Positions 13,604-36,775 of a stretch of DNA of 64,000 nucleotides are shown piece by piece. Both the position numbers and the translations under genes were made by a program. Below the pieces are notes generated by a model that saw only the letters and a program-made list of their open reading frames with translations, was not told the DNA's origin and searched no databases. This DNA is from Cellulomonas citrea (GTDB lineage: Bacteria; Actinomycetota; Actinomycetes; Actinomycetales; Cellulomonadaceae), in contig NZ_VWSD01000001.1 in assembly GCF_009829685.1 (NCBI RefSeq), positions 1 to 64,000 of the forward strand, given 5' to 3'. Every line of letters begins with the position of its first letter. Within the stretch, counting starts at the first letter, position 1.

Positions 13604-13604
13604 C

Positions 13605-16653: not shown

Positions 16654-16694
16654 CGTTGCTCCCTTGTTCTCTGACGGTGACTGTGACTGCTCTG

Positions 16695-18389: not shown

Positions 18390-18415
18390 CGTTGCTGCAC
18401 CGCCATCGTCGCCGG

Positions 18416-18435
18416 GGTTAACTGTTTAGTTGACC
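18416..18435. promoter_or_regulatory. LacI-type operator candidate, alpha-glucan operon
   Basis: GGTTAACT-GTTT-AGTTGACC: two 8-bp half sites inverted with one mismatch, in the leader of the first operon gene. It is the most AT-rich spot in the area. Its position before the operon, and a LacI gene at the operon's end, support it as the repressor's binding site. Confidence 0.5.
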
Positions 18436-18566
18436 GAAATACTGGCGGGGAAACGGAGGGCTGTCAAGCCCCCCGTGGCAGCGCGCGGCGCAGCCCGACG
18501 AGGACGGGTCGCACGGGGGTCACGAACCGGTCGTCGCGCCGAGGCCGGACGGCTATAGTGCGTCGC

Positions 18567-18911
18567 ATGGTACCGGGCGACAGCGCCATCCTGGCGAACC
18601 TGCGCCGCGGTGCGCTCGAGTACTGCGTGCTCGCCGCGCTCGGCGCCGGGCCGCGGTACGGCCTGGACATCGCGCGCAGCCTGAGCCGCGACGGCGTCCT
18701 CATGGGCGGCGAGGGGACGCTCTACCCGCTGCTCGGCCGGCTGCGGAAGTCCGGCTGGGTCCAGACCACCTGGCAGGAGTCCCCCACCGGGCCGCCGCGC
18801 CGCTACTACCGGCTCACCGCCGACGGCGAGCACGCCCTCGCCGAGTTCACCCGGATCTGGGGACCGTTCCGGGACGCCGTCGACACCGCACTCACCAGGG
18901 GAGAGATCTGA
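18567..18911 (+). CDS. PadR-family transcriptional regulator
   Basis: A 114-residue PadR-type winged helix: [25 protein letters not shown] (about 14-38), the recognition-helix region [18 protein letters not shown] (about 48-65) and the wing with [17 protein letters not shown]. The start at 18567 is ATG. Its TGA overlaps the ATG of the next gene (TGATG), coupling it to a HAAS-domain membrane protein. PadR plus HAAS pairs are common in actinobacteria and Firmicutes; the membrane partner is thought to relay or modulate the signal. Its target is unknown but is probably its own operon. Confidence 0.88.
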
Positions 18912-19510
18912 TGGAACCGGCAGCCGAACGGGCCGCGACCCGCTACCTCGACGACCTGGGCCGCATGCTCACACCCGCGCCGCCCGTGCAGCGGGCCGAG
19001 GTGCTCGCCCAGGTCCGCGAGCATCTCGACGAGGCGTTCGCCGAGCTGGGCCCGGAGCCCACCGAGGCCCAGGTGCGCCAGGTGCTGGCCGATCTCGGCC
19101 CGGCCGAGCAGATCGCCGCCGACGTGCTGCCCGCGACCCCACCGGCCACCCCGCTGCTCGCCCGGGCCGGTCTGCCGTGGGTGGTCGTCGGCCTCATGGC
19201 GCTGGGGTTCGTGCCGCCGTTCGGCTGGCTCGCGATGGTGCTGGGGCTCGTGCTCTTCCTCGTCTCACCGCTGTGGCACCGCGCGTGGAAGGTCGGCGGC
19301 ACGCTCGCCTACGTCCTCGTCCCGCTGCTCCTGTGGGGGGCCATGCGCCTCGGCACCGCCACCGACCCGTCCGTCGAGTCGCCGTCGGTCCTCATGCCGA
19401 GCACGTTCCTGTTCCCCTGGCTCATCCTGCTGGTCCCGCTCGGCTGGGTGGTGGTGGCCGTCGTGCTGGCCGTCCGGGTGAGCCGTCGGCCGCGTCCGAC
19501 CCGAGGCTGA
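18911..19510 (+). CDS. HAAS-domain membrane protein, PadR partner
   Basis: A 199-residue protein with a soluble N-terminal helical domain (about residues 1-75). RYLDDLGRMLTPAPPVQRAEVLAQVREHLDEAFAEL is the pattern of HAAS/DUF1700-like domains that accompany PadR regulators. Four predicted membrane helices follow (about 85-105, 107-122, 133-148 and 165-190). It is translationally coupled to the PadR gene (TGATG). It is likely a membrane-bound signalling or sequestering partner of the regulator; the stimulus is unknown. Confidence 0.75.
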   Translation: MEPAAERAATRYLDDLGRMLTPAPPVQRAEVLAQVREHLDEAFAELGPEPTEAQVRQVLADLGPAEQIAADVLPATPPATPLLARAGLPWVVVGLMALGFVPPFGWLAMVLGLVLFLVSPLWHRAWKVGGTLAYVLVPLLLWGAMRLGTATDPSVESPSVLMPSTFLFPWLILLVPLGWVVVAVVLAVRVSRRPRPTRG

Positions 19511-19516
19511 GCCCCC

Positions 19517-20998
19517 TCAGCCGACCACCGGCGGGTCGGTGACCAGGTCGCGGGTCTCGTGCACACCGTCCGCCGCGGTCCAGCGCAGCACGGTGGCCCC
19601 GGTGTCCAGCTCCGTGACGAGCTCCGCGCGCTGCTCCCCCGACGTCCAGACCAGGTGCAGCCCCCGCTCGGCGGGCAGCACCTCGAACTCGCCGCCGAAG
19701 GCCGGGTGCGCGTTGCGGAACCGGCACAGCGCGAGCAGACCCGCGACCACCGGACGGGCCAGCTCGGCGGTCAGCTCGGGCCCGGAGTAGCGGTGCCGGT
19801 TGATGTCGCGCCCCACGCCGGAGCGGGCCAGCAGCTCCATGTCGTTGCGGCCGGCCAGCGCCCCCACGTAGTAGACCTGCGGGATCCCCGGGCAGAACAG
19901 CTGGACGGCGCGGGCCGCCAGGTAGCGGGCGTCGTGCGCACCCAGCGCGTCGTAGAAGGTGCAGTTCACCTGGTAGATGTCCAGGTTGGAGGCCGCAGCC
20001 CCGGTCGCCGCGCGACTGCGCCCGCCGCTGGCCTCGTGGATCGACTCGACGAGCGCGTCGAGCTGGTCGGCGGTCAGCAGCCCCGCCTCGCCGGTCTGCG
20101 GGTCCGGGCCGACGTCGACGATCCCGATGCCGTCGTGCGTGTCCAGCACCGTGACCGCGTTGGCGGGGCGGATGCCCAACCAGTGCACGAGCGGGGCGTG
20201 GTCACCGCTCGCCGCGGCGTGCAGCACGAGGGGCGGCAGCGCGAAGTCGTAGACCCGGTCCACCTGCCGGGCGATCTCGACCTGCCGCTGGAAGTACGAG
20301 TGCACCTCGACGAGCACCTCGAGCCCGCGGGCGTGCGCCTGGCCGGTGAGCTCGTCGATGAACGCGAACGTCTCGGGCGTCATGAAGCACGAGGTGCCCG
20401 GCGTCTTGACCGCATAGCCCGCTGCGTCCAGCCGGATCATCGAGACCCCCGCCGCGGCCAGCGCGTCGAGCACGCTGCGCAGGTAGGCCGCGCCCGCGGC
20501 CGAGTGCACGTCGATGTCGACCTGCTCGGACGTGAACGTGGTCCACACGAACCGCCGCCCCTGCCCCATCCGGAACGACGTGAACGGCAGCCCGGGCCGC
20601 GGCCGGTAGATCCGCAGCAGGTCTTCCTCGGTGGCCCCGTCCGGGAACACCGAGCCGAATGTGAGGAACATGTCCGCGTACGGCGAGGCGGCACCCCGTG
20701 CCTGGGCGTCCTGGAACTGCGCGCTGCGTGCCGAGACGTGGTTGACGATGACGTCGACCGTCACCTCGACATCGTCCGCGAGCGCCCGCACCGAGCCCCA
20801 GTCCCCCAGCCGCGGGTCGACGCTCGTGTGGTCCACCGGGTCGAACCCGGCGTCCGCACCGTCGTACGGGGTGAAGAACGGCAGCACGTGCACCCCGCCG
20901 AAGGCGCCCGCGAACGGGCCGGCCAGCACGTCGCGCACCCCGGCGAGGGTGCCGGCGAGGCGGTCGGCGTAGGCGATGAGCGTGACCTCGTTGCGCAT
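19517..20998 (-). CDS. sucP: Sucrose phosphorylase (GH13_18)
   Basis: A 493-residue protein that follows the Bifidobacterium sucrose phosphorylase sequence almost throughout: ITYADRL-like LIAYADRLAGT (7-17), VHVLPFFTPYDGADAGFDPVDHT (36-58), nucleophile D191 (IRLDAAGYAVKTPGTSCFMTP), acid/base E231 (VEVHSYFQRQVEIA) and D289 (LDTHDGIGI). It converts sucrose and phosphate to alpha-D-glucose 1-phosphate and fructose in the cytoplasm (EC 2.4.1.7). Length matches the family (about 490-505). It is a single gene with no adjacent transporter. Related glucosylglycerate or sucrose-6-phosphate phosphorylases are possible, but the local motifs favour sucrose. Confidence 0.88.
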   Translation of the reverse strand: MRNEVTLIAYADRLAGTLAGVRDVLAGPFAGAFGGVHVLPFFTPYDGADAGFDPVDHTSVDPRLGDWGSVRALADDVEVTVDVIVNHVSARSAQFQDAQARGAASPYADMFLTFGSVFPDGATEEDLLRIYRPRPGLPFTSFRMGQGRRFVWTTFTSEQVDIDVHSAAGAAYLRSVLDALAAAGVSMIRLDAAGYAVKTPGTSCFMTPETFAFIDELTGQAHARGLEVLVEVHSYFQRQVEIARQVDRVYDFALPPLVLHAAASGDHAPLVHWLGIRPANAVTVLDTHDGIGIVDVGPDPQTGEAGLLTADQLDALVESIHEASGGRSRAATGAAASNLDIYQVNCTFYDALGAHDARYLAARAVQLFCPGIPQVYYVGALAGRNDMELLARSGVGRDINRHRYSGPELTAELARPVVAGLLALCRFRNAHPAFGGEFEVLPAERGLHLVWTSGEQRAELVTELDTGATVLRWTAADGVHETRDLVTDPPVVG

Positions 20999-23646: not shown

Positions 23647-24465
23647 TCACCCCTTGACGCTGCCCTGGGTGAGGCCGTCGACGATGTAACGCTGCATGAA
23701 CAGGAAGAACACGACGACGGGCACGAGCAGGATCACCGTGAGCGTCATGAAGAGCGGCCAGTCGGTGGTGAACTGCCCCACGGCCGAGTAGGCCAGCAGC
23801 ACGAGCGTCTGCTTCGCCGGGGTGCTGATGAAGACGTTGGGGGTGATGAAGTCGTTCCACACCCACATGGTCTGGAAGACGCTCACCGTGATGAGGATCG
23901 GCCGGATCAGGGGCAGCACGATCGCGAAGAAGATCCGCCCGGTGCCGGCGCCGTCGATGCGCGCGGCTTCGAGCACCTCGGCGGGCACGGTGCGCATGTA
24001 CCCGAGGATCAGGTAGTAGCAGAAGATGGCGCCGCAGCTGTAGATCACGACCAGCCCGTTGAGGGAGTCCACCAGTCGCGCGTCGACGAGCATCTGGTAG
24101 ATCGGGATGAGTGTGGCCTGCCCTGGGACGAGGAAGGCCACGGCGAGCAGGCCGCCGACGGCTGCGGTGAGCTTGGTCTTGCCGAGGATCATGCCGTAGG
24201 CGGCCATGGAGCCGACGAGCACCATGAGCGCGACCGAGAACACCGTGACGTACAGGGTGTTGAGGAACGAGCCGACCACGTTGGTGGTGGCGAAGACCTG
24301 AGCGTAGTGAGCCAGAGTGGCGTGGATGGGCAGCGCGAGAGGCGATCGGGCGGTCTCGTCCTGGCTCTTGAAGGTGTTGACGAGGATGTAGTAAAAGGGC
24401 ACGGCCATCGCAGCGGCGATGATCAGCATGATGGCCGACGTCAGCCATCCACGGGTGCGAGTCAT
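23647..24465 (-). CDS. Sugar ABC permease, MalG type (second locus)
   Basis: A 272-residue CUT1 permease with six predicted membrane helices. The EAA loop reads EVLEAARIDGAGTGRIFFAIVLPLIRP (about residues 177-203), and the C-terminus GLTQGSVKG is typical of MalG-type subunits. The ATG at 24465 is chosen because its ATGA overlaps the preceding permease stop. It is the last gene of the binding protein-permease-permease unit. No ATPase gene is present. Its cargo should match the GH43/GH29 enzymes of this locus, i.e. an arabinose-, xylose- or fucose-containing oligosaccharide (inference). Confidence 0.9.
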   Translation of the reverse strand: MTRTRGWLTSAIMLIIAAAMAVPFYYILVNTFKSQDETARSPLALPIHATLAHYAQVFATTNVVGSFLNTLYVTVFSVALMVLVGSMAAYGMILGKTKLTAAVGGLLAVAFLVPGQATLIPIYQMLVDARLVDSLNGLVVIYSCGAIFCYYLILGYMRTVPAEVLEAARIDGAGTGRIFFAIVLPLIRPILITVSVFQTMWVWNDFITPNVFISTPAKQTLVLLAYSAVGQFTTDWPLFMTLTVILLVPVVVFFLFMQRYIVDGLTQGSVKG

Positions 24466-25412
24466 GTGTATCGCGCCTCCAGACGGCGGCTGATGGTCAT
24501 CTGACCGAGGATGATGGCCCCGACCAGAAGCAGGAACAGGACGGCCAGCGCTGAGGCCTTGCCGATGTCGGCCTGGGCCACTCCTTGCTCGATCAACGAC
24601 TGGGTGACGGTGCGGGTGGCGAAGCCTGGTCCACCGTGGGTCAGGGTGAATGGCAGGTCGTAGACCTTCAGTCCCCCGGTCATCAGCAGCAGCTGGCTGA
24701 CCGTGATCGCGGGGGTCAGCAGGGGCAGCGTGATCGACCGGAACATCCTGACGCGTCCGGCGCCGTCGATGGTGGCCGCGTCGTAGTAGTCGCTCGGGAT
24801 CGACTGGAGGTAGGCGAGGTAGAGGATGGCGTGCCAGCCGGTCTGTGCCCAGACGGCGACGACGATCACCGAGATCTGGGCCAGGCGCGGGTCGGAGAGC
24901 CACGGCACCGGGCCGATGCCGGCCACAGCGTGCAGCGCGCTGTTGAGGACCCCGGAGCCGAGCGGGTTCAGGATGAAGCCCCAGACCATGCCGAGCACGG
25001 CGATGCTCGGCACCGCGGGGAAGAAGAATACCGAGCGGACCACGTCACGCCCGAAGAAGCGGGTGTTGAGGACCACCGCCAGCGGGATCGCCAGGCAGGT
25101 GACCAGGACGGTCGTCACGACCGCGTAGCCGAGGGTGAACCACAGCGCGGAGAGCATCTCGGGGTCTTTGAACGCCGAGGCGTAGTTCGCAAAGCCGATC
25201 CAGTGCATGTCGGTCGTGTACCCGTTGGCGTCGGTGAAGCTGAACCACAGGCTCTGGCCCAGGGGGATCGCATACAGGACCACGAAGATCGCGATGATCG
25301 GGGCCAGGAAGAGCCACGGGCCGCCCGAGGCGGCAAAGCGCCGACGAGCGCGTGGGCGACCCGCGAGCGCCGTTCGCGGGATGGCCGCCGAGTGTGACAG
25401 CGACAAGGCCAT
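24462..25412 (-). CDS. Sugar ABC permease, MalF type (second locus)
   Basis: A 316-residue CUT1 permease. After an N-terminal basic tail, six membrane helices begin near residue 32 (PWLFLAPIIAIFVVLYAIPL). The EAA loop is DYYDAATIDGAGRVRMFRSITLPLLTP (about residues 206-232). MALSLSHS is chosen as start because the region further upstream forms an intercistronic hairpin and does not encode the family's N-terminus. It overlaps the next permease by ATGA and lies 83 nt after the binding-protein gene. Confidence 0.9.
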   Translation of the reverse strand: MALSLSHSAAIPRTALAGRPRARRRFAASGGPWLFLAPIIAIFVVLYAIPLGQSLWFSFTDANGYTTDMHWIGFANYASAFKDPEMLSALWFTLGYAVVTTVLVTCLAIPLAVVLNTRFFGRDVVRSVFFFPAVPSIAVLGMVWGFILNPLGSGVLNSALHAVAGIGPVPWLSDPRLAQISVIVVAVWAQTGWHAILYLAYLQSIPSDYYDAATIDGAGRVRMFRSITLPLLTPAITVSQLLLMTGGLKVYDLPFTLTHGGPGFATRTVTQSLIEQGVAQADIGKASALAVLFLLLVGAIILGQMTISRRLEARYT

Positions 25413-25451
25413 GGAAGGGGTGCCTCTCTCGGTCGAGGTGAAACGGGAGGT

Positions 25452-25488
25452 GCCTCCGCGGCAGATCGCTTGGGTCCGCCGCGGAGGC
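25452..25488. terminator. Intercistronic hairpin after binding-protein gene
   Basis: GCCTCCGCGGC and GCCGCGGAGGC form a perfect 11-bp stem with a 15-nt loop, placed in the 83-nt gap between the binding-protein gene and its permeases. Such hairpins often stabilise the upstream part of the message or partly terminate, so that more binding protein than permease is made. Confidence 0.6.
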
Positions 25489-25495
25489 GTCGGCG

Positions 25496-26800
25496 TCAAC
25501 TCCCGAGGCTTGCGAGCTTCGCGTCGAGCGCTGCCGCGAACTTGGCCGGGGTCGAGGTCCCGGCGATCAGCTGCTGCATCTGCGCGGCGGCCTCGGGGCC
25601 GAGCACCTCCGAGTGCGTGGGCCACGAGACCTGCGGCAGGTAGAACTGGCCCGCGCGCACGGCCGTGGCCATCTCCGTCAGGGCCGGGTCGAGGGTCGGG
25701 GTGAAGTCGGCGGTCGTGGTGATCGACTGGGTCTGCTTCTGGTAGAGCGCGACACCTTCCTTGCTTGCGAGGTACTCGACGAACTTCTCCGCGGCCACCG
25801 GGTGCTGAGCCTTCGCGTTGATCGCGTAGCCCGGCGAGACAGCGCCGACCCAGTACAGCGTGCCGTCAGTTCCCGGCACGGCGGCGAACGACACGTTCAA
25901 CTTCGGTGCGGCGGTCTTGATCGTGCCGAGCGCCCAGGATCCGGTGCCGATCATGGCGACGTTGCCCTTCTCGAACTCGGCCATGACCTGGTCACCGGTC
26001 AGGCCCGCCGCGGCGCGGGTCTCCATGCCCGTGGAGAAGAGCTGGCTCCAGGTCGTCAATGGGTCGGTCCACGTGCTGGCGAAGGTCTGCTTCTTGGCCC
26101 AGATGTCGGCATCCATCGATCCGCCGAGCTGCTGGTTCTTGATCCCGAGCAGGGCCGCGAGGGTCACCGTGATGCCGTCGCCCGGCTCGAGGAAGGGCGT
26201 GATGCCCGCGGCTTTGAGCGTGGCGCCGTCGGCAAGGAACTCGCTCCAGGTCTTCGGCTCGGTGGTGATGCCGGCCTTGGCCAGCAAGTCCTTGTTGTAC
26301 AGGATCCCACCACCCCATGAGGCGATCGCGGCACCGTAGGTGGCGCCGTCCTTGGTGTACGTGTCCTTCGCGGCCTTGGCAATGTTGGACATGAAGGGCT
26401 GCTTGCTGAGGTCCTTCACCAGCTTCTGGCCCATCAGGTCCTGCTTGTTCTCGGCGGTGATGATGAAGACGTCGGCGGCCGTGCCACTGCGCAGGCGGGT
26501 CTGCAGGGTCGAGACGTACTGGGTCACCGGCGGCGAGTAACTGAAGTCGACCTTGATGCCAGGGTTGGCCTTCTCGAACCCGTCGATGACCGGCTGCATC
26601 GTCGCCTGGGTGTCCCAGGAGAAGAAGCTGACCGTGGACTCGGCGACCCCGGCGCTCGCCGAGGACGTGGAGCCCGCGGAGCTGCTGCTGCACGCGCTCA
26701 GGGCCAGGGCCACCACCGCGAGGGTGCTCAGGGCCATGACCCTGCGGCGGCTTGCCGGGGCCCGACGGGGGGTGTCGGATTCATGCTGGTTCAGCGACAT
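25496..26800 (-). CDS. Sugar ABC importer binding lipoprotein (second locus)
   Basis: A 434-residue family-1 solute-binding protein. An unusually long pre-signal segment (residues 1-20) leads to the hydrophobic stretch VMALSTLAVVALAL and lipobox LSAC (Cys about residue 37). The mature N-lobe starts STVSFFSWDTQATMQPVIDGFEKANPGI (about 55-82). GTGSWALGTIKT (about 286-297) and the C-terminal EYLASKEGVALYQKQTQ match CUT1 binding proteins. It precedes the permeases and follows the GH43-like gene by 84 nt. The specific ligand is unknown. Confidence 0.88.
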   Translation of the reverse strand: MSLNQHESDTPRRAPASRRRVMALSTLAVVALALSACSSSSAGSTSSASAGVAESTVSFFSWDTQATMQPVIDGFEKANPGIKVDFSYSPPVTQYVSTLQTRLRSGTAADVFIITAENKQDLMGQKLVKDLSKQPFMSNIAKAAKDTYTKDGATYGAAIASWGGGILYNKDLLAKAGITTEPKTWSEFLADGATLKAAGITPFLEPGDGITVTLAALLGIKNQQLGGSMDADIWAKKQTFASTWTDPLTTWSQLFSTGMETRAAAGLTGDQVMAEFEKGNVAMIGTGSWALGTIKTAAPKLNVSFAAVPGTDGTLYWVGAVSPGYAINAKAQHPVAAEKFVEYLASKEGVALYQKQTQSITTTADFTPTLDPALTEMATAVRAGQFYLPQVSWPTHSEVLGPEAAAQMQQLIAGTSTPAKFAAALDAKLASLGS

Positions 26801-26884: not shown

Positions 26885-27766
26885 TCAGGGGGATCGGACG
26901 TCGGCGAGAGCAGGGTCCTCGCCGATCCAGGACGGCACGGTGTCCAGCTGGAGCACCGAGGCGTGGCGCGTGCCCGGCGGCACCGACACCTCCAGGGGGT
27001 GCCACGTCTGCCAGTCCGTGCTGACAGACCCGCCGTAGGTGCCGGCGAGGTAGTGGTCGTAGAGCAGGACCCACTGGTCGTCGACCCGGTACAGGGTGGG
27101 GCCCTCGGCGGCGTCGTCGCCGATCGGCCCGACGAGGCCGTCGAACGGCCCGCCAGGGTCGAGCGCGTTGGTGAGCATGATGCGTTTGAACGGGTTGTGG
27201 GCGACGTTCTCCCCGCGCTCGTCCTTGAACGCCATCCGCAGCAGCCCGTCGGTGCGCACGACCGCGGCGTCGATCACCGAGTAGCCGGGGTCGAAGAAGA
27301 TCGCGGACGGCGAGAAGCTGGCGAAGTCACTGGTCTGGCAGCGCCAGATCCGGTGGTCCTGCGGGTTGTGCTCCCAGTCGTGTCCTGCGCCGTCGAGCTG
27401 CCCGTCCACGCACGAGGACCAGATGATGTGCACCAGGCCCGCATCGTCGACGAAGAACTCCGGCGCCCACGCGTTCTGGGCCCCGGGGACGTCCGTCATC
27501 ACCGGCAGGAGCTCGGGCTGGTCCCAGTGCCACAGGTCGCTCGACGTGGCGTGCACGATCGACGTGCTGCTCCATCCGTCGGTGCCCAGCAGGTGGAACT
27601 TCCTGTCAGGTCCGAGCCCGATGAACGGGTCGCGGATCCGGCCTGTCCCGACCGTGCTGGACAGCAGCGGTCGACCGCCGTTGAGGGGCACGAATCGTCG
27701 CCCGTCCTCGCTGACGGCGAGATGAACGCTCTCGTCGTCAGCGGTGAAGTACGACATGAGGAACAT
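26885..27766 (-). CDS. GH43-like glycosidase (five-bladed propeller)
   Basis: A 293-residue enzyme with the GH43/GH32-type beta-propeller pattern. The likely catalytic triad is D46 (RIRDPFIG), D166 (YSVIDAAVV, the pKa modulator) and E221 (AAEGPTLY), with NAWAPEFFVDDAG (98-110) in between. No signal peptide, so it acts inside the cell on imported oligosaccharides. GH43 enzymes mostly release L-arabinose or D-xylose; the exact sugar cannot be deduced. It is the first gene of the importer unit (84 nt before the binding-protein gene) and 192 nt after the LacI gene on the same strand. Confidence 0.75.
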   Translation of the reverse strand: MFLMSYFTADDESVHLAVSEDGRRFVPLNGGRPLLSSTVGTGRIRDPFIGLGPDRKFHLLGTDGWSSTSIVHATSSDLWHWDQPELLPVMTDVPGAQNAWAPEFFVDDAGLVHIIWSSCVDGQLDGAGHDWEHNPQDHRIWRCQTSDFASFSPSAIFFDPGYSVIDAAVVRTDGLLRMAFKDERGENVAHNPFKRIMLTNALDPGGPFDGLVGPIGDDAAEGPTLYRVDDQWVLLYDHYLAGTYGGSVSTDWQTWHPLEVSVPPGTRHASVLQLDTVPSWIGEDPALADVRSP

Positions 27767-27958: not shown

Positions 27959-29014
27959 TCAGCCCGTGGCGTGCGACGCGGAGGTGGAGCGGTTGGTGCT
28001 CGCGTCGGTGTCGGCGGCCTGTCCGGTGCTGCCTCGGATCACGAGGGACGTGGCAAGCCGGATGTCGTCGGTGACCAGGCTCTGGCCGTCGAGCAGACTC
28101 AGCAGCGCGCGGGCACCGCGCAGTCCCATGTCGTGCAACGGCTGACGCACGGTGGTCAGGCCGGGGAAGCTCTGCCCGGCCTGTGGCAGGTCGTCGAAGC
28201 CCAGCACCGACAGGTCTCGGGGCACGTCCAGGCCCGCAGCGCGCGCGGCGTCGATCGCACCGAGGGCCATGAGGTCCGCACCGGCTGCGATGGCAGTCGG
28301 GTTCTCGCTGAGCAGCGACGTCGAGGTGCGGAAGCCACTGTCGTAGGAGAAGCTGCAGGTTTTGACCAGGCGTTCGTCGACCTGGAACCCGGCCAGGGTG
28401 AGCGCGTCCGAGTAGCCGCGGAACCGCAGCTCGGAGCTCTGCAGCTCGTCGTCGCCCCGCAGGAAGGCGATGCGGGTGTGGCCCAGCGCGATCAGGTGCT
28501 CGACGCCGGCCCGCATGCCCTCGTAGTTGTCGACCGTCACCCGTGGCAGAGGCGTGTCGATCCGCCGGGGATCGATGACCACGCACGGGACGCGGTTGTC
28601 GCGCAGGAAGTCCAGCGTTGCCGGCTCCAGCACCGGGGCGACGAGGATCAGCCCGTCGACCTGACCACGGGACAGGCTGCGAATCCGGTCCTGCTCGCGC
28701 TCGGCGTCGTGGTAGGACGCGTTGATGAGCAGCTCGAGCTCGTCGTCCGCGAGCTCCTCGGCGACGCCCCGGATGATCTCCAGCGTGTACTGCGCGGTGA
28801 GGTCCAGCGTGATGAGCCCCACGAGGCCGGTGCGCCCGTTCTTGAGCGACCGGGCGGCGGAGTTGACGACGTAGCCGAGCCGGCCGGCCGCCTCCAGGAC
28901 GCGCCGGCGGGTCTCCTCCGAGGCGCCGGGGCGGTCGTTGAGCACGTTCGACACGGTCATCGCGGACACGCCGACCTCGGCCGCCACCTGGGCGATGGTC
29001 ACCCGTCCCACCAT
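27959..29014 (-). CDS. LacI-family regulator of the second glycan locus
   Basis: A 351-residue LacI/GalR repressor: HTH TIAQVAAEVGVSAMTVSNVLNDRPGASEETRRRVLEAAGRLGYVVNSAARSL (about residues 6-57), then the effector domain (GLITLDLTAQYTLEIIRGVAEEL, about 66-88; SVLGFDDLPQAGQSFPGLTTVRQP, about 285-308). The start ATG at 29014 gives the usual few residues before the HTH. A TTTAACGCTA-containing site lies about 80 bp upstream, and the same decamer precedes the large beta-helix gene, suggesting one regulon with autoregulation. Confidence 0.88.
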   Translation of the reverse strand: MVGRVTIAQVAAEVGVSAMTVSNVLNDRPGASEETRRRVLEAAGRLGYVVNSAARSLKNGRTGLVGLITLDLTAQYTLEIIRGVAEELADDELELLINASYHDAEREQDRIRSLSRGQVDGLILVAPVLEPATLDFLRDNRVPCVVIDPRRIDTPLPRVTVDNYEGMRAGVEHLIALGHTRIAFLRGDDELQSSELRFRGYSDALTLAGFQVDERLVKTCSFSYDSGFRTSTSLLSENPTAIAAGADLMALGAIDAARAAGLDVPRDLSVLGFDDLPQAGQSFPGLTTVRQPLHDMGLRGARALLSLLDGQSLVTDDIRLATSLVIRGSTGQAADTDASTNRSTSASHATG

Positions 29015-29095
29015 GTCTGCTCCCTGACCTGCATCGCCGCCGCCGCAGGCGTCATGCCTGCGAAACGGTCGGGTTCGTCGCTGAACGTGCACTAC

Positions 29096-29140: not shown

Positions 29141-30055
29141 TCAGCCCAGGTTCAACCGGGTCTGCGCCGCGCGGTCGCACACGAGTGCGTCGCCGCGCAC
29201 GTCGAGCGCCGCGACATGGATCGTCGACCGCCGGGTCGCCCACGTGCGGCGGTCCTCGCCGAGCGGGTGCGTGAAGTACGTGAGGTAGGCCTCGTCACCG
29301 TGCACCAGGACGTCGGCGTGCAGACCCGGCCCCTCGTCGTCCGTACCGGGGCGGCCGGACGCGCCGTCGAGCAGCACACCCGCCGGGCGCCACGTCTCCA
29401 GGTCGTCGGAGGTGAACGCCAGCTGCCCGTCCCACGAGTCGACCACCATCCAGTACCGGCCGCGGAAGGTGAACACGTTCGGCCCCTCGTGACCGCCCTC
29501 GGTGCGCAGCACGGGCCTGGGCTCGTCCCAGTGGTACAGGTCCGCGCTGTCCGAGGCCCAGGTGCTGTTGCCGTCGGCCTCGTTCTTGAACCACATGCGG
29601 TACCCACCGGCCGGCAACGGGTGGACGCAGGCGTCGATGACGAGCGGGTACCGCGGCAGGACGTCGCCGTGATGCGTCCACGAGACCAGGTCGGGGCTGG
29701 TGTAGTGGTGGATGTGCCGTTCATGGCCGGCCCAGCGGTCCGGGACCCCGCGGATGTAGCTGACGTACATGTGGAACTCGCCCTCGGCCCAGACCACCTC
29801 CGGGGCCCAGAAGGTGTTCCGCCCCGGCTCGTGCTCCAGCCCGGCGAGCACCCCGCGATACACCCACGTCGCGCCACCGTCGGACGACGACGCCGTACCG
29901 ATGTCGCTGCCGTGCACCCACGCCACGCCCTGCCCCGCTGGGGCATCGGCCCGCCGGCTGGTGTACAGGAGCCACCACAGCCCGTCGGTGCCGCCCGGAA
30001 CGATCACCGGATCGGTCGCACCGTCATGGATCGGGTCACGGAAGAGCTCTGACAT
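29141..30055 (-). CDS. GH43-like glycosidase, second copy type
   Basis: A 304-residue beta-propeller glycosidase related in layout to the GH43-like enzyme at 26885-27766. Candidate triad: D15 (GATDPVIVPG), D141 (LVIDACVHPL) and E190 (HEGPNVF), with TFWAPEVVWAEGEFHMYVSY (81-100) typical of GH43. WFKNEADGN (155-163) parallels AFKDERGEN in the first enzyme. No signal peptide. MSELFRDP is chosen as start; a longer in-frame extension lacks homology. It lies 36 nt from the LacI-upstream operator and on the same strand. Substrate unknown. Confidence 0.72.
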   Translation of the reverse strand: MSELFRDPIHDGATDPVIVPGGTDGLWWLLYTSRRADAPAGQGVAWVHGSDIGTASSSDGGATWVYRGVLAGLEHEPGRNTFWAPEVVWAEGEFHMYVSYIRGVPDRWAGHERHIHHYTSPDLVSWTHHGDVLPRYPLVIDACVHPLPAGGYRMWFKNEADGNSTWASDSADLYHWDEPRPVLRTEGGHEGPNVFTFRGRYWMVVDSWDGQLAFTSDDLETWRPAGVLLDGASGRPGTDDEGPGLHADVLVHGDEAYLTYFTHPLGEDRRTWATRRSTIHVAALDVRGDALVCDRAAQTRLNLG

Positions 30056-30086
30056 CTGATGGTTCCTTCCTCGCCCACATTTCCCT

Positions 30087-30104
30087 AACGTCATTGCCGA
30101 CGTT
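30087..30104. promoter_or_regulatory. Inverted repeat before GH43-like gene
   Basis: AACGTC-ATTGCC-GACGTT, a perfect 6+6 dyad about 30 bp upstream of the start at 30055. A position near the promoter makes an operator role possible; the sequence differs from the TTTAACGCTA sites. Confidence 0.4.
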
Positions 30105-30314: not shown

Positions 30315-31892
30315 TCAGCCGTGAAGGAAGTCGGTCCGCTCGTGCACCGCTTCACGTTCGAGCCACAGCCTGACCACGACGCCGACGTCGGTGAGGGTCC
30401 CGCCCTCAGGTCGGGGTCCCAGGTCGACGGTCAGTGCCGCATGGTCGTGCTGCCAGAGCGGCGTGTCCACCTGTCCGAGCACGCTCACCGCCCGGATCCC
30501 CCGGGTCAGCAACCCCCGACCGCGCCCGAACGACTCGATCCGCGCCACGCCGTCGACGGGCCGCCGCAGCACGATCGCATACACGTAGTCCCCCGTGACG
30601 TCCGTGCGCGAGGTGAACCGCAGATCCGACGAGGTGTACGGCGCGGCTTCGTGATCGACGAACGACCCGACGGCCACCGCCGTCGGCCCTTCCCCCGCCA
30701 CGACCCACGGACGCGTGCCGTAGATCGCCTCCCCGTTCCGCGACAACCACGCCCCCAGCCCTTCCAGGATCTCCTGCTCGGCCGGCGGGATCGTTCCCTG
30801 CGCGGTCGGCCCCACGTTCAGCAGCAGGATCCCGTTCTTCGCCACGACGTCGACCAGCTCGCCGACCAGATCGGCCACCGACTTGTAGTCGTGATCCTTG
30901 ACCCAGCACCACGAGCTGCGCGACACCGACGTGTCGTTCTGCCACACCTCCGGACGGATCCCCGCGATCGACCCCCGCTCGACGTCGAACACCGCACTTC
31001 CGTCAGCGAACGCCGTCCACTTGTAGTTGATGACGACCTCACGCCCCCACTGAGCAGCACGGTTGTAGTAGTACGCCGCCAGCTTGCGCACGTAGGGCTC
31101 GAAGGCCGGCTGCTCGATCCACCAGTCGAACCACAGCACCTGCGGCCGGTACCGATCGATGATCTCCACCGTCCGCAACAACCAGTCCTCGAGGAACTGC
31201 TCGTTCGGTGCTGTCTCCTCGCGCTGAGCCGGACCGTAGAAGTCCACGAACTCCGGGTCCAGCACATCGGAGTCGAACCGCGCGCCACCATTCATGAAGA
31301 ACCAGTGCTCCGCGCGGTGCGACGACACCCCCGCCACCATCCACGCACGCCGCGTGGCATCGAGCAGGTCTCCCAGCACATCCCGCTGCGGACCCATCGC
31401 CGTGGCCTTCCACCGCGACCGATCCGTCTCATACATCGCGAACCCGTCATGATGCTCCGCCACCGGCACCACGAACTGCGCGCCGGCACGACGGAACAAC
31501 GCCGCCCACGCATCAGGGTCGAACTGCTCCATCGTGAACGACGGGATGAAGTCCTTGTACCCGAACTCCTTCTGAGGTCCGTACGTCGCCACGTGATGCT
31601 CGAACTCCGGAGTGCCCGCGAGATACATCGACCTCGAGTACCACTCGCTCCGAAAAGCCGGCACCGAGTACACGCCCCAGTGCAGGAAGATCCCGAACTT
31701 CGCATCCAGGTACCACAGAGGTGGCCGGTAACCCGTCAGAGACTCCCAGCTGTCCTCGAACGGCCCGCACGCAATCACCGCGTCCACCGCGGACAACCCC
31801 GCCGAGTTGTCCGCCACATCCACCACCGGCGGCAACCCGGCCCACTCGGTACCGCGCCGAACGACCTCACCCACATTGACTCCATTCCACAT
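30315..31892 (-). CDS. GH29 alpha-L-fucosidase
   Basis: A 525-residue GH29 enzyme. Family motifs: WYLDAKFGIFLHWGVYSVPAF (60-80), VVPVAEHHDGFAMY (141-154), nucleophile D256 in VLWFDWW, and GILLLNVGPTAQGTIP near 340-355. No signal peptide, so it probably hydrolyses terminal alpha-L-fucose from imported oligosaccharides. ATG at 31892 is taken as start; the frame continues open upstream through 650 nt of gene debris (a truncated FAH gene), which should not be read as part of this protein. Base composition is slightly less GC-biased than the neighbours. Terminated by the hairpin at 30258-30304. Confidence 0.85.
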   Translation of the reverse strand: MWNGVNVGEVVRRGTEWAGLPPVVDVADNSAGLSAVDAVIACGPFEDSWESLTGYRPPLWYLDAKFGIFLHWGVYSVPAFRSEWYSRSMYLAGTPEFEHHVATYGPQKEFGYKDFIPSFTMEQFDPDAWAALFRRAGAQFVVPVAEHHDGFAMYETDRSRWKATAMGPQRDVLGDLLDATRRAWMVAGVSSHRAEHWFFMNGGARFDSDVLDPEFVDFYGPAQREETAPNEQFLEDWLLRTVEIIDRYRPQVLWFDWWIEQPAFEPYVRKLAAYYYNRAAQWGREVVINYKWTAFADGSAVFDVERGSIAGIRPEVWQNDTSVSRSSWCWVKDHDYKSVADLVGELVDVVAKNGILLLNVGPTAQGTIPPAEQEILEGLGAWLSRNGEAIYGTRPWVVAGEGPTAVAVGSFVDHEAAPYTSSDLRFTSRTDVTGDYVYAIVLRRPVDGVARIESFGRGRGLLTRGIRAVSVLGQVDTPLWQHDHAALTVDLGPRPEGGTLTDVGVVVRLWLEREAVHERTDFLHG

Positions 31893-32108
31893 CAAGAGCG
31901 ATTGGCGGAAGCACGCCGTCACGCCGAAACTGTCAGACCGTCTCATTCTGAGGGGACACTGGCGCCCGGACGGCGGGTCACCTCCCCGAAAGTGTGGACG
32001 CCGAGTCCCCATCGGAGTTCGATGCACGCCTCGCGGTCCTGCGCATCGACCGGATCGCGTCGCCGGTGGCTCTTCCGCTGGACCAGAGCCTCCACAAGGC
32101 CCCACCGG
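31893..32108. other. Rearranged spacer upstream of fucosidase
   Basis: This 216-nt stretch between the fucosidase start and the broken FAH gene holds no intact gene. It includes the fucosidase leader and a segment whose origin I cannot assign. It may be an insertion-element end or other junction sequence. Confidence 0.4.
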
Positions 32109-32546
32109 GGCGTCGTCGGGCGAGTCGAGGTACCGGGCCGTCGAGCCGATCACCATAGCCAGCTCCACCCCCCAGTCGGTCTTCGCCGACGTCCTCGGGA
32201 TCAGGACGTCATCATTTGGTCCGATCAGAGCCGACGGGTCCTTCAGGAAAACGACCGGTCCCACCGGGATCTGGGCGCCGGTCTCCACCGCGTGATCCCG
32301 GTAGTTCAGTCCGATGCAGACGATCTTCGTCGGCACAGCGACCGGAGCCCCGATCCTCGAACCCGACACCCCGGCGAGTATCGGCAGCGATCCCGCAGTG
32401 GCGAGCGCAACCGCCCGTCCGATACCACCGCCGGCGAGTAAAGCTCCATCGATGTCGTCGGTGACAGACCGCAGGTCGCAAGCGGCACCGCCGATCTGCA
32501 CCACCGGGATCTCCGCACCGGGTTCGCCCAACCGCGCGAGTGTCAT
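32109..32546 (-). pseudogene. 5' fragment of a fumarylacetoacetate-hydrolase-family gene
   Basis: Encodes the first 146 residues of an FAH-family hydrolase (MTLARLGEPGAEIPVV..., then TKIVCIGLNYRDHAVETG and VVFLKDPSALIGPNDDVLIP) and stops matching abruptly after RYLDSPDDA, where full-length members continue about 140 residues with the second half of the active site. The metal-binding part is missing, so it is not functional. FAH-type enzymes act in several sugar-acid pathways, including L-fuconate degradation. Lying next to a fucosidase, it is probably the relic of a fucose-catabolic operon (inference). Confidence 0.75.
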
Positions 32547-32553
32547 GATCTCG

Positions 32554-32826
32554 TCAGGTCCGTTCTGTGTCAGTGATGTCATGATCGGGCGCGATCCTCC
32601 CGCGCTCGTCGGGCGCATAGGCGGCCTCGACGACCCCCATGGTGCCCTCCTTCTCGAGGGCCGCCTCCAGGACCTGTTTCGCCAGGCCTGCCAGCAACCC
32701 ACCCGTGCCAACCAGGTCGATCCCGGCCACCCGAGCCTGCTCGACCAACTGCGCCGCCACCTCACGCTGCGCGCCCTCGTCCAACCCCATGCCCGTCATC
32801 GTCACCAACTCGATCGTCCCGTTCAT
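32554..32826 (-). pseudogene. IS256-type transposase 5' remnant fused to a foreign 3' end
   Basis: The first 60 codons (to about 32647) match the start of IS256-family transposases: REVAAQLVEQARVAGIDLVG followed by GTGGLLAGLAKQVLEAALE. The catalytic DDE core is absent. The last 30 codons (GVVEAAYAPDERGRIAP...) look instead like the C-terminal tail of a Gfo/Idh/MocA-type dehydrogenase. So this short open frame is a junction between an IS remnant and the end of another gene, in line with deletion of the material between them. It is not a functional transposase. Confidence 0.65.
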
Positions 32827-32937
32827 GCTGCCCACTCCCTCGCCACGCCATGCTCGCCATTTCTGGCTGGACAGCACTTACAACACTGTTCGGACAGGCT
32901 CGCAGCCTCGACACCGGATCAACCGGTTGCAGCGCCG

Positions 32938-33795
32938 TCACGGGGTAATGCATCTGCCGGATTCCAGGCATCCTCGGGCAACAAATTCTAGGGCAGCAGA
33001 GCGTGCGACTGACGCGGCGGAGGCAGCTTGCGCAAGAAGTGCCGAGTATCTGTCCTCGGTGTAGAGCATGACGATCATTTTGTTGGCCTCCGCTTCCGCT
33101 TGTCCGGCATGTAGCCGGACGAAAGCGGCGATATCGGGGCGGGCACGGAGGAACGACGTAATCGAGCCAGTATCAATGTTGATGGTGCCGTTGGTCCGCA
33201 TTGCATCCCGCAGATCGAAGCTGTACTGGTCCTGAAGATATTGGAAATAGTTTGCTTCCGTGTACTGCACCGGTCCGTAGATCGGCTTCTTCTCGGCGAC
33301 CGCATCGCGGCGTCGGGTGTTCTCGTCACGGAGCTGAGTCAGAAACGAGTCGTACGTCGCCGACTCGGCGATTCCGTAGGTCACGGCCCACCGACGCTGA
33401 ACCGTGGCGCGCGCGATATCGGCCAGGGCCGCATCGATGAGGTGCTCGGACGGGGTCGAGTCGCCATACCGCGTCGTCCAGAAGCCGGCTGAGCCTGCGT
33501 CGTGGTTCTCGGCCTGATAGTGCGCGATGGTCGCGGCTCGATCCCGGTCCAGGTAGATCTGCAGCTCCCGTGCGGGCACGGCGATACCGTCGACCGTCGC
33601 GACGTCGGTGTCCTGGGCCAGCAGGGTCGCGGGGCCGGACGCTGCCGGATGGCCGACGGTCGTCGGCTTGAGCCACGCTGCGGCGCAGACGACTGCCAGA
33701 ACGAGCAGGGCCAGGACGATGCCGACGATCAGGCGCACCGGCCGGCGCGTGCTCGCGGCAATCCGGTCACGTGCCGTGGACCTCGTGGACTGCAT
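32938..33795 (-). CDS. SurA/PpiC N-domain-like membrane-anchored protein
   Basis: A 285-residue protein with one N-terminal membrane helix (about residues 20-42: RLIVGIVLALLVLAVVCAAAW) and an extracytoplasmic domain. ATVDGIAVPARELQIYLDRDRAATIAHYQ (about 65-93) is the N-terminal signature of SurA/PrsA-like foldases, where 'VNGxxIxxxEfxxyl' opens the chaperone domain. The parvulin PPIase domain is missing: the C-terminal part is short and ends in a Cys pair (CLESGRC). It is transcribed just after the large beta-helix protein (85 nt), so a role in folding that secreted protein is plausible but inferred. Confidence 0.6.
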   Translation of the reverse strand: MQSTRSTARDRIAASTRRPVRLIVGIVLALLVLAVVCAAAWLKPTTVGHPAASGPATLLAQDTDVATVDGIAVPARELQIYLDRDRAATIAHYQAENHDAGSAGFWTTRYGDSTPSEHLIDAALADIARATVQRRWAVTYGIAESATYDSFLTQLRDENTRRRDAVAEKKPIYGPVQYTEANYFQYLQDQYSFDLRDAMRTNGTINIDTGSITSFLRARPDIAAFVRLHAGQAEAEANKMIVMLYTEDRYSALLAQAASAASVARSAALEFVARGCLESGRCITP

Positions 33796-33880
33796 CGGTT
33801 CTCGTCTCCGTCGTGCTGACCCGTCCCTGTCGCGAGGGGAGGCGCCCGGGCCCTCGACACGCCCGGGCGCCTCCCCCGGC

Positions 33881-36679
33881 TCAGGGAGTGGCAAGCGTCG
33901 CGATCTCAGCGGATGTCAGCGTCCGGTTGTAGAAGTGCACCTCGTCGATCGCTCCGTTGACGAAGTCAACAGGCGTTCGCGCCCAGACGGCGGACCCGAG
34001 TGCGGTCGCCCCCCTCACCCGGAAGATGCTCGCCGCGCTGGCCGACCCCTGCAGCGAACCGTTCACGTAGAGCGAGATCGATCCGGCGCTGGCGTCGAAC
34101 GTGCCGAGCACGTGGTACCAGACCCCGGCCGTCGGTGTCAGCGTCGACGCCACGCTGCTCGCCGTCGCTCCTGTTGCGTCGGAGGGACGGGTCGTGAACG
34201 TGAACTTGCCACCGGCCAGCTGGAGGTAGAACGGACTGACGTTGGCGCCGTAGCTGCTCACGAAGGTCTGGTTCCCGCTGAGGGAGCTGAGCTTCACCCA
34301 GGCGTCGACCGCGAAGCTGGCGCTCGTGTCGATCGGCGTCGCACCGACTGCACCCCAGGTGCCCTTGGTGCCGTCGAGAGCCAGGGCGCCCGCTCCCGCC
34401 TCCCCGGCTGCCCACCCGGCCGATCCCGTGAGCCAGCCCGGCACGGTGTACCCGGTGACGTCCGCGAACGTGCGGCCGGCGTCCTCGTTGAAGGCGAAGT
34501 AGGCGGAGGCGCCGCTGCCGATCGCGAAGGCCTCGCGGTCGGTCAGGGCCCGGGGGATCATCCTTACGTCGTCGATCGTGGCGTTGGCGAAGTCGACCGG
34601 GGCGCGGTTCCACTTGGCTCGCCCGATGGTCGTGTGCCCGGTGGCCTTCCATGCGGACGAGTAGCTCGCGGTGGACTGAAGGACACCGTTGACGTAGAGC
34701 TTGATGGTGTGGGCGACGCTGTCGTAGACGCCCATCAGGTTGTACCAGGTCCCGGCGACCGCGGCGGGTCCGACCGCTTGGGTGTACGAACTCGAGGTGG
34801 AATCTGCGCTCCGCTGGGTGAAGGCGAAGGAGCCGCCCGACAGCTGGAGGTAGAACGGGCTGATGACCGACCCGTCGATCGAGGCGTAGGTCTGGTTCCC
34901 GGTGGTCGTGGTCGGCTTGACCCACGCCTGGACGGTGTACGAGCCGCTCGTGTCGACGGCCGTCGTCGGGATGTCGACGAACCCGGTCGAGCTGCCGTTG
35001 AGCGCCACGGCGAACGGCCCCATCCGACCGGCCGCCCATGAGGCGCCGGCCTGCAGCACCCCCGGGTTGTTGTTGCCGGACGCGTCCAGCGCGGCCGTCC
35101 CGCTGCCGGTGTCGAAGCGCCAGAACCCGCCGGGGGTGGGTGCCGGGGCGGCGACGCCCGCACCGTTGTAGGCCCCGATGTTGGGCGCGGCCGACGACGA
35201 GACCGGGTTGCCGAAGTAGTCCAGCCCGCCGTTCCCGGCGACCAGCGCGCCCGCCCCCAGGGCCGGCGACCCGGTGCGCAGCTTGTACGCCGCCGCAGAG
35301 GCCCGCCCAGAACCGGCGCCGCCCGGTGCGACGAGCAGCGGGTCGGCGGTCACCTTGGCGGCGTCGGCCGGTTCGCTGCTCGGGTGGTTGCCGTACATGA
35401 GGTTGTGGTTCCAGGTGGTCCTCGTGGTGGCGTAGCCGCCGGTCCCGAGCTTGTAGATCACGTTGTTGGTGAAGACGGCGCTGGCGCCCGACGACGGTGT
35501 GCCGGCGGTGAGGTCACCGTTGTTGCCCGCGGGCATGTAGAAGGTGTTGTTGTAGACCTGGGCGACCGCACCGGGGGTCAGCCCGCCCAGCAGCCCGATG
35601 TTGGCGTTCGACGCCCCGTCGTTCTGGCTGATGTTGTAACGGATGGTGCTCGTTCCGCTGACACCGAATGTCGCGCTGCAGCAGAACTCCATGAAGCCCC
35701 ACGGGTTGTCGTGCGTGTAGTTGTACTGGAGGACGGTCCCGCTGTCGTTGTTGTCGATGTCGAAGGCCTGACCGTCGACGAACGACTTCCAGTTGCGCGC
35801 CACCTCGTTGTACTGCCAGATTCCGTTGGTGGTCCACCCCGACCAGAGCGCAGCCCCGGAGAAGCGGTAGCCGCTGTCGGTGGAGACGTTGTACTGGATG
35901 AGCGGGGCGGAGCAGAACACGCACACGATCGAGTTGCCGCCGGCGTTGGTGATCGTGTTGTTCTGGATCACCACACCCGTCGTCACCTTGTCGTGGTTGA
36001 GGCCCTTGAGCGACCCGATGTAGATGGCACCCGCATCGGTCTTCGTCAGGGTGTTGCCGTCGATGAGGATGTCGTCCCAGCCGCTCGTGGTGTTCGCGTC
36101 GCTGAGCTCGAAGGCGATGGCCGAGGTGTTGACCGGCTGCGGGTCGTTGGTGTTCCAGTTCCCCGCGATGTCGTGGATCGTGTTGTTGACGATGTGGATG
36201 CCGTGCAGGCTCCCCGTCGTGTCGTTCCCGACGTGGATGCCGGCCCGGTACCCCAGGGTGGTGGCGGTGTTGGTGATCTCCAGGTTCTGGATCGTCCAGT
36301 CGTGCTGGTCGAGCAGGCTCACCGCCGCGGCGGCGCCTCCCCCGGCCACGATCGGCGCCGCACCCGAGCCGTAGCTCGACACGACGACAGGGTTGCCGCT
36401 CGCCCCGGACCCCTGCGGTGCGAGGGTGCCGGTCCACGAGCCGCCGGCCGCCAGGAGGATCTGGTTCCCGGGGGCGAAGGTCGTCGCGTTGACGTTCGTC
36501 AGGGTCTGCCAGGGGGTGGACGGGCTGCAGCCGTCGTTGGCGTCGTTCCCCGCCGCCGACGAGACGTAGTAGGTGGCACATCCGGTGGCGGAGGCGGCCG
36601 GGGCGGCGATGACGGCCGCACCGAGCCCGACCACGGTGGCGGCTGACACCGCGACCAGTCGTCGTAGGGACGCTCGCAT
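33881..36679 (-). CDS. Secreted beta-helix protein with two LamG domains
   Basis: A 932-residue secreted protein. Signal peptide: MRASLRRLVAVSAATVVGLG... with an ASA cleavage site (about residues 1-32). A right-handed parallel beta-helix follows (about 35-470), with many asparagine ladders such as IHIVNNTIHDIAGNW and VVIQNNTITNAGGNS, typical of pectate-lyase-like and GH-type polysaccharide enzymes. Then come two LamG/concanavalin-type domains (about 500-700 and 720-932), each with a DVRMIPRALT/DEVHFYNRTLT-type motif. Its likely role is binding and cleaving an extracellular glycan; the enzymatic class is not clear. It lies next to the SurA-like gene and has a TTTAACGCTA-type site upstream. Confidence 0.8.
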   Translation of the reverse strand: MRASLRRLVAVSAATVVGLGAAVIAAPAASATGCATYYVSSAAGNDANDGCSPSTPWQTLTNVNATTFAPGNQILLAAGGSWTGTLAPQGSGASGNPVVVSSYGSGAAPIVAGGGAAAAVSLLDQHDWTIQNLEITNTATTLGYRAGIHVGNDTTGSLHGIHIVNNTIHDIAGNWNTNDPQPVNTSAIAFELSDANTTSGWDDILIDGNTLTKTDAGAIYIGSLKGLNHDKVTTGVVIQNNTITNAGGNSIVCVFCSAPLIQYNVSTDSGYRFSGAALWSGWTTNGIWQYNEVARNWKSFVDGQAFDIDNNDSGTVLQYNYTHDNPWGFMEFCCSATFGVSGTSTIRYNISQNDGASNANIGLLGGLTPGAVAQVYNNTFYMPAGNNGDLTAGTPSSGASAVFTNNVIYKLGTGGYATTRTTWNHNLMYGNHPSSEPADAAKVTADPLLVAPGGAGSGRASAAAYKLRTGSPALGAGALVAGNGGLDYFGNPVSSSAAPNIGAYNGAGVAAPAPTPGGFWRFDTGSGTAALDASGNNNPGVLQAGASWAAGRMGPFAVALNGSSTGFVDIPTTAVDTSGSYTVQAWVKPTTTTGNQTYASIDGSVISPFYLQLSGGSFAFTQRSADSTSSSYTQAVGPAAVAGTWYNLMGVYDSVAHTIKLYVNGVLQSTASYSSAWKATGHTTIGRAKWNRAPVDFANATIDDVRMIPRALTDREAFAIGSGASAYFAFNEDAGRTFADVTGYTVPGWLTGSAGWAAGEAGAGALALDGTKGTWGAVGATPIDTSASFAVDAWVKLSSLSGNQTFVSSYGANVSPFYLQLAGGKFTFTTRPSDATGATASSVASTLTPTAGVWYHVLGTFDASAGSISLYVNGSLQGSASAASIFRVRGATALGSAVWARTPVDFVNGAIDEVHFYNRTLTSAEIATLATP

Positions 36680-36775
36680 GGGACTTCCTTTCGTCTGCGC
36701 TGACGTGGGAGCGGGCACCGCCGCCCGAGGAGCCCGCACGGGGGCCAGGGGGCGCGAGCCAGGTTTACGAGGCTG

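Follow-up and report, generated by a model that had tools for sequence, protein, structure and literature searches.

Gene-decay scars associated with insertion sequences (ISs) are a general and known kind of genomic remnant. The route of L-fucose breakdown that runs through FucA, FucB, FucC, FucF, and FucG and yields pyruvate and L-lactate is outlined in a part of PMC11199699, where the fucose and rhamnose hydrolases are also described as sharing one intermediate as their substrate. A GH136 locus of Roseburia inulinivorans, described in a part of PMC7335108, also has GH29 and GH95 fucosidases.

The window analyzed here, a stretch of 64,000 nucleotides from Cellulomonas citrea, contains an IS scrap and truncated catabolic genes beside an intact gene, and nothing essential sets this arrangement apart from the IS-associated gene-decay scars. 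We consider this arrangement likely to be a scar left by the deletion of fucose-catabolic genes next to a fucosidase gene that stayed intact.

Read from 5′ to 3′ on the minus strand, the region comprised LnbX-like and LnbY-like genes, an IS256 scrap, the tail of a gene, half of an FAH gene, a linker, a GH29 gene, a GH43-like gene, a LacI-family gene, a second GH43-like gene, and importer genes. The LnbX-like protein (952 aa; 33881..36739) resembled the GH136-type lacto-N-biosidase family, with a match to NCBIfam NF047897 (E 7.5e-23) far under the curated cut-off and two LamG stretches (PF13385), and the LnbY-like chaperone (318 aa; 32938..33894) matched NF047894 (E 9.4e-8), likewise far under its curated cut-off. 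The two genes (32938-36739, minus strand) overlapped by 14 nt and lay directly upstream of the scar. Downstream of the GH29 gene, a GH43-like protein (29141..30094; PF04616, E 1.5e-8, just above the cut-off) was followed by a LacI-family regulator (27959..29092; PF00356 and PF13377), a second protein that was weakly GH43-like (26885..27766; PF04616, E 5.2e-4, under the cut-off), and a sugar ABC importer consisting of a binding protein and two permeases (23647..26800), all on the minus strand. Farther along the window, a cluster at 11130-20998 contained an alpha-amylase-family protein at 16695-18389 and another at 19517-20998, which also weakly matched a sucrose-phosphorylase C-terminus; a third alpha-amylase-family protein, a LacI-like regulator, and an importer were recognized in this cluster by eye.

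Identity and decay of the FAH fragment

The FAH fragment (32109..32546, minus strand) was recognized by Pfam search and alignments as the first 146 codons of a hydrolase of the FucG/LRA6 type (L-2,4-diketo-3-deoxyfuconate or -rhamnonate hydrolase). Its PF01557 match at 32109-32327 covered profile positions 1-80 of 214, which falls short of a full-length FAA_hydrolase domain. The complete FAH of Streptomyces torulosus (283 aa; 62% identity to the fragment) aligned with the window at residues 1-146 only (32546-32109), and DNA homology with the same-genus genome G095 stopped at 32110. The eight nearest FAH N-terminal halves were 61-68% identical to the fragment, and the value for G095 was 63%. 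One other PF01557 match was present in the genome of the strain; it was complete, lay on contig C199, and was 39% identical over the shared part. The missing C-terminal half did not turn up in the PF01557 search of the strain's own assembly. The first-pass annotation had read this piece as the first half of an FAH hydrolase upstream of the GH29 fucosidase, and these results agree with that reading.

As the fucose and rhamnose hydrolases use the same intermediate, the FAH sequence alone is not diagnostic of the sugar; the neighboring genes of its relatives favor fucose. In S. torulosus, the FAH gene was followed by genes of an enolase-superfamily protein and an SDR, and by eye also of an aldo-keto reductase (AKR). 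Regions of approximately 20 kb around FAH matches were fetched for 25 loci, mostly chosen as best matches, and they contained an SDR (at least 55%) in 18, an AKR (at least 50%) in 17, an L-fuconate dehydratase (at least 55%) in 11, and a lactonase (at least 35%) in 12 of the 25. In 21 of these loci, FAH shared 50% identity or more with the Streptomyces protein, and the corresponding counts were 18 of 21 for the SDR and 11 of 21 for the dehydratase; L072, L073, and L075, whose FAH was at least 50% identical, had neither of the two at 55% or more. The nearest intact FAH relatives thus occur together with genes for the fucose SDR and L-fuconate dehydratase. The gene order in G095 was AKR-dehydratase-lactonase-FAH-SDR, and its FAH matched the solved L-2,4-diketo-3-deoxyrhamnonate hydrolase 8gsr (E 3e-72), its dehydratase matched the solved L-fuconate dehydratase 2hne (E 3e-175), and its lactonase matched L-fucono-1,5-lactonase NF052480, under the cut-off. 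The predicted membership of the FAH piece in the L-fucose oxidation pathway, already suggested in the first-pass annotation, is supported by these neighbors and structural matches. The fragment shares the sequence family of the FucG/LRA6-type hydrolases and, through its intact relatives, their operon neighbors; it differs from them in comprising the first 146 codons only, in the replacement of an invariant Glu, and in belonging to a genome without a detected L-fuconate dehydratase.

The replaced residue is position 126, which is Gly in the fragment and Glu in all 55 of the 55 distinct relatives, so that the first Glu of the Glu-x-Glu motif is missing. We take this invariant Glu to bind metal. 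Among the 28 FAH columns conserved at 90% or more, Gly126 was the sole deviation, and the 146 codons contained neither a stop nor a frameshift; the single deviation and the lack of a stop were counted against the scar. With its reading frame still intact, the gene may have been lost recently. In the FAH tree, the end branch of the fragment was long (0.56 against a median of 0.25). Its GC3 was 0.80, compared with 0.87-0.96 in most neighboring genes; that of the LnbY-like gene was also low (0.75), and low GC3 is therefore not specific to decay. No L-fuconate dehydratase orthologue was found in the strain's own assembly, the best matches being 31% and 40% over parts, and the SDR, AKR, and lactonase had no match at E 1e-3 on its contig C111. 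With its C-terminal half absent and the invariant Glu lost, the FAH gene is predicted to be dead, in line with the decay that had been claimed for it.

IS256 fragment and gene tail

Upstream of the FAH fragment, the frame at 32557-32826 aligned over 54 aa with the start of an IS256/Mutator-type transposase in G431 (score 149, against a best score of 58 in 1000 shuffles). The G431 transposase itself matched PF00872; the fragment from the window alone had no Pfam match. As judged from this alignment, the piece at 32641..32826 (minus strand) is certainly the start of an IS256-type transposase. It shares the first approximately 60 residues of the transposase with the IS256/Mutator ISs and differs from them in that the element is cut, with the catalytic part absent and the inverted ends not recognized; the short repeats of 31860-32960 included no convincing end pair. 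DNA homology stopped at 32647 with G431 and at 32641 with G032. Protein matches to the fragment occurred in 3 of 57 other relatives, and comparison with plasmids by DNA and by protein gave no match.

The transposase piece runs directly into the last 28 codons of another gene (32557..32640, minus strand), which end at the TGA at 32556-32554, 7 nt ahead of the FAH ATG, and whose GC by codon position (0.71/0.50/0.79) was coding-like. Among 768 gene ends of the fetched loci, the best match to this tail was the C-terminus of a Gfo/Idh gene in G357, with 11 of 14 residues identical (TMAVVEAAYASQER in the tail and TMGVVEAAYAPDER in G357); 1 of 200 shuffled tails scored equally well, and the family of the G357 gene was confirmed by Pfam. 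A profile of Gfo/Idh tails gave 2.5 bits, a score that 65 of the 768 gene ends also reached, as did 92 of 2000 shuffles, so the profile does not single out the tail. In a search of 396 genomes, the best match to the tail had an E value of 0.008, and no Gfo/Idh end was recognizable by eye in 29 fetched matches; G357 was within this sample, yet it was not among the matches. The 31-aa tail had no Pfam match, and a phmmer search of the PDB returned nothing; the Rossmann domain (PF01408) of a Gfo/Idh gene would fall within the missing portion.

The position of such a gene was also surveyed in relatives. In approximately 57 distinct loci, some of which lacked any upstream frame, inspection by eye of the last 55-70 residues of the upstream frames recognized no Gfo/Idh gene directly before FAH. 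PF01408 genes lay at least approximately 5 kb from FAH in all 11 relatives searched, and none was adjacent. The G357 gene was 17 kb from FAH, with importer, lactonase, and dehydratase genes alongside, and its orthologues, present in 12 of the 396 genomes including G357, were never within 15 kb of a listed FAH match. The genes beside the one in G357 (L203 5003-6112, minus strand) belong to a fucose cluster and comprise an importer, a lactonase, and two that are enolase-like. Of the two joined upstream pieces named in the first-pass annotation, the IS256 5′ fragment was upheld, and the tail is likely, but not proven, to be the end of a Gfo/Idh-family dehydrogenase gene.

The abrupt junctions between these pieces, found in a draft genome of 434 contigs, could also be explained by an assembly error that misjoined unrelated sequences. 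The site lies well within a 77-kb contig, and a search of the strain's own draft genome with the stretch 31860-33000 at E 0.01 returned the window itself as the sole match (40 of 102 first-look candidates scored), so there is no repeat that would invite a misjoin. We regard a chimeric assembly as very unlikely.

Fucosidase gene, linker, and the 816-aa frame

The GH29 gene (30315..31892, minus strand) encodes a predicted alpha-L-fucosidase of 519-525 aa with a complete PF01120 domain (9-345 of 345, E 9.8e-96). Its homologues were 51-69% identical over at least 450 aa, and the homology started 10-33 residues past the ATG at 31892; the start codon is probably the GTG at 31874 or this ATG. No signal peptide was seen by eye. 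Judged by its sequence, the gene is intact and has kept its own start.

The 216-nt linker between the FAH fragment and the GH29 gene (31893..32108, minus strand) is open in the frame of both, and its GC by codon position (0.69/0.74/0.60) was not coding-like. Searches in six frames against the fetched loci, Pfam, and plasmids gave no match better than E 0.05, and thus no match traced it to a source; a coding role for the linker in some frame was rejected, as the frame-by-frame searches did not support it. A stretch within the linker, TGTCAGACCGTCTCATTCTGAGGGGACA at 31925-31952, resembles a mobile-element end. No second copy of it was found, the 8 of 284 loci that matched all being the window's own stretch; no viral contig matched, and plasmid matches appeared only at E 0.7-8. 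A scan for promoters and terminators gave one weak match each, and neither entered the interpretation.

The frame at 30315..32765 (minus strand) was listed mechanically as a single ORF of 816 aa covering the FAH fragment, the linker, and GH29. Such a frame, together with an FAH fragment free of stops, would suit a genuine fusion of FAH to GH29 or a 5′ leader that is translated, with the frame through the linker in use and a chimeric protein as the product. However, in the four collinear loci where FAH precedes GH29 in one direction (L256, L257, L258, and L074), 5-15 in-frame stops separated the two genes, and a fusion was found in none of them; the composition of the linker, which is not coding-like, and the loss of the invariant Glu and half of the FAH domain also argue against a functional chimera. 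A real fusion is thus extremely improbable, and the fusion suggested by the 816-aa frame is most likely spurious, as the first-pass annotation had warned.

FAH-GH29 linkage in relatives and proposed origin of the scar

Of the 395 further genomes sampled from the order, 27 had this GH29 (E 1e-60), and an FAH gene lay within 15 kb of GH29 in six of the 27. The two genes were on the same strand with FAH first in G113, G195, and G209, and divergent in G042, G122, and G177, where FAH was 12 kb from GH29 (for G177, the linkage was taken from coordinates alone). The remaining 21 of the 27, some of which are drafts and approximately nine of which had no FAH match at E 1e-28, showed no linkage. The clusters read FAH-SDR-AKR-lactonase-GH29 in G113, permeases-FAH-dehydratase-SDR-AKR-lactonase-GH29-GH29 in G195 and G209, and FAH-dehydratase-SDR-AKR-lactonase-GH29 in the same-genus G034 (listed contamination of 7%), whose GH29 was only 31% identical. 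An intact cluster with dehydrogenase, FAH, and GH29 genes, for which a search of relatives had been suggested, therefore exists in these four genomes, with a distant GH29 in G034. These non-phosphorylating L-fucose clusters have the same FAH-to-GH29 order and strand as the window; in the window, the intervening genes are absent, the importer is unrelated, and the GH29 is of a different subgroup. The collinear clusters make a lost operon plausible.

Joining contigs C496 and C84 of G067 would place a lactonase before GH29; the contigs had no overlap, and the join was not used. In an Acidobacteriales MAG (L052, 2887-9630), a GH29 with 51% identity to that of the window shared one region with homologues of the SDR, of L-fuconate dehydratase, and of FAH, and the link between GH29 and fucose thus crosses phyla.

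Under the proposed deletion scar, an IS256 element would have landed upstream, one deletion would have fused its transposase gene, cut in the middle, with the 28 codons that end the tail gene, and a second deletion would have taken out FAH from codon 147 onward and all that followed up to a point shortly ahead of the GH29 gene, which would have kept its own start and stayed intact. The proposal builds on the fragments and breakpoints, the pathway of the intact relatives, the missing FAH half, the lost Glu, the dehydratase orthologue that was not found, and the collinear clusters elsewhere. That two deletions rather than another path produced the scar, and that the IS had a role, are steps that we infer. 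That FAH and GH29 formerly belonged to one operon here is plausible, not proven, and has about an even chance of being correct. The earlier suggestion of a fucose operon deleted around an IS is partly supported, with intact collinear counterparts in relatives.

An alternative differs from the scar proposal solely in this one-operon step, so the confidence in the one overlaps with that in the other. Here, the IS scrap, the dehydrogenase tail, and the FAH half, as one piece of a fucose catabolic cluster, would have been moved by an IS-linked rearrangement or transfer beside a separate glycan locus consisting of the LnbX/LnbY-like pair, GH29, GH43, and the importer, and FAH and GH29 would never have formed one operon here. 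We give this possibility somewhat less than an even chance. In the GH29 tree, the window fell into a starred set of 14 rows, together with G180, G126, G066, G164, G067, G336, G127, G042, G122, G150, G177, and G249 (on a long branch), and G113, G195, and G209 were outside this set. In the FAH tree, the window paired with G249 (f19, not starred), and G113, G195, and G209 were placed elsewhere; G249 has both genes, approximately 278 kb apart. With its GH29 outside the collinear subgroup and its FAH nearest to that of G249, the two genes of the window may have met later. Six loci (L266, L267, L268, L270, L271, and L272) carried GH29 and an importer without FAH in the fetched region. Within the genus, FAH matches (E 1e-28 or better) were present in 4 of 80 other genomes, and GH29 of the window type in none of the 14 other genomes listed. 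The first permease of the window's importer shared 29-35% identity with its counterparts in 11 GH29-linked loci; the counterparts in G195, G209, G042, and G122 were 81-97% alike among themselves. The importer is therefore not left over from such a fucose operon, contrary to the first-pass annotation.

The GH29 subgroup, the pairing with G249, the 21 of 27 unlinked genomes, the importer type, and the lack of a Gfo/Idh gene before FAH were all counted against a scar of one operon. However, the fragment and GH29 have the order and strand seen in G113, G195, G209, and G034, the starred GH29 set that includes the window also includes G042, G122, and G177, whose FAH is 12 kb from GH29, and the trees could likewise have been mixed by transfer that replaced genes.

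In a further scenario, the strain would have lost L-fucose oxidation and kept the intact GH29 next to the LnbX/LnbY-like pair, removing fucose from glycans only to reach the underlying sugars and leaving the fucose to other organisms. Such cross-feeding would have become fixed through the IS-linked deletion and been kept by selection; we consider this scenario unlikely. In the literature on Cellulomonas and L-fucose and on fucosidase pseudogenes, searched by titles alone, none of the titles listed dealt with such a locus. The scar is an ordinary, known kind of gene decay, and it leaves the knowledge of fucose catabolism and of IS elements unchanged. Its open frame would lead annotation astray into a fused enzyme. 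It marks an apparent loss of fucose oxidation, for which a few species of the genus retain the whole cluster, and it places a fucosidase beside an LnbX/LnbY-like pair.
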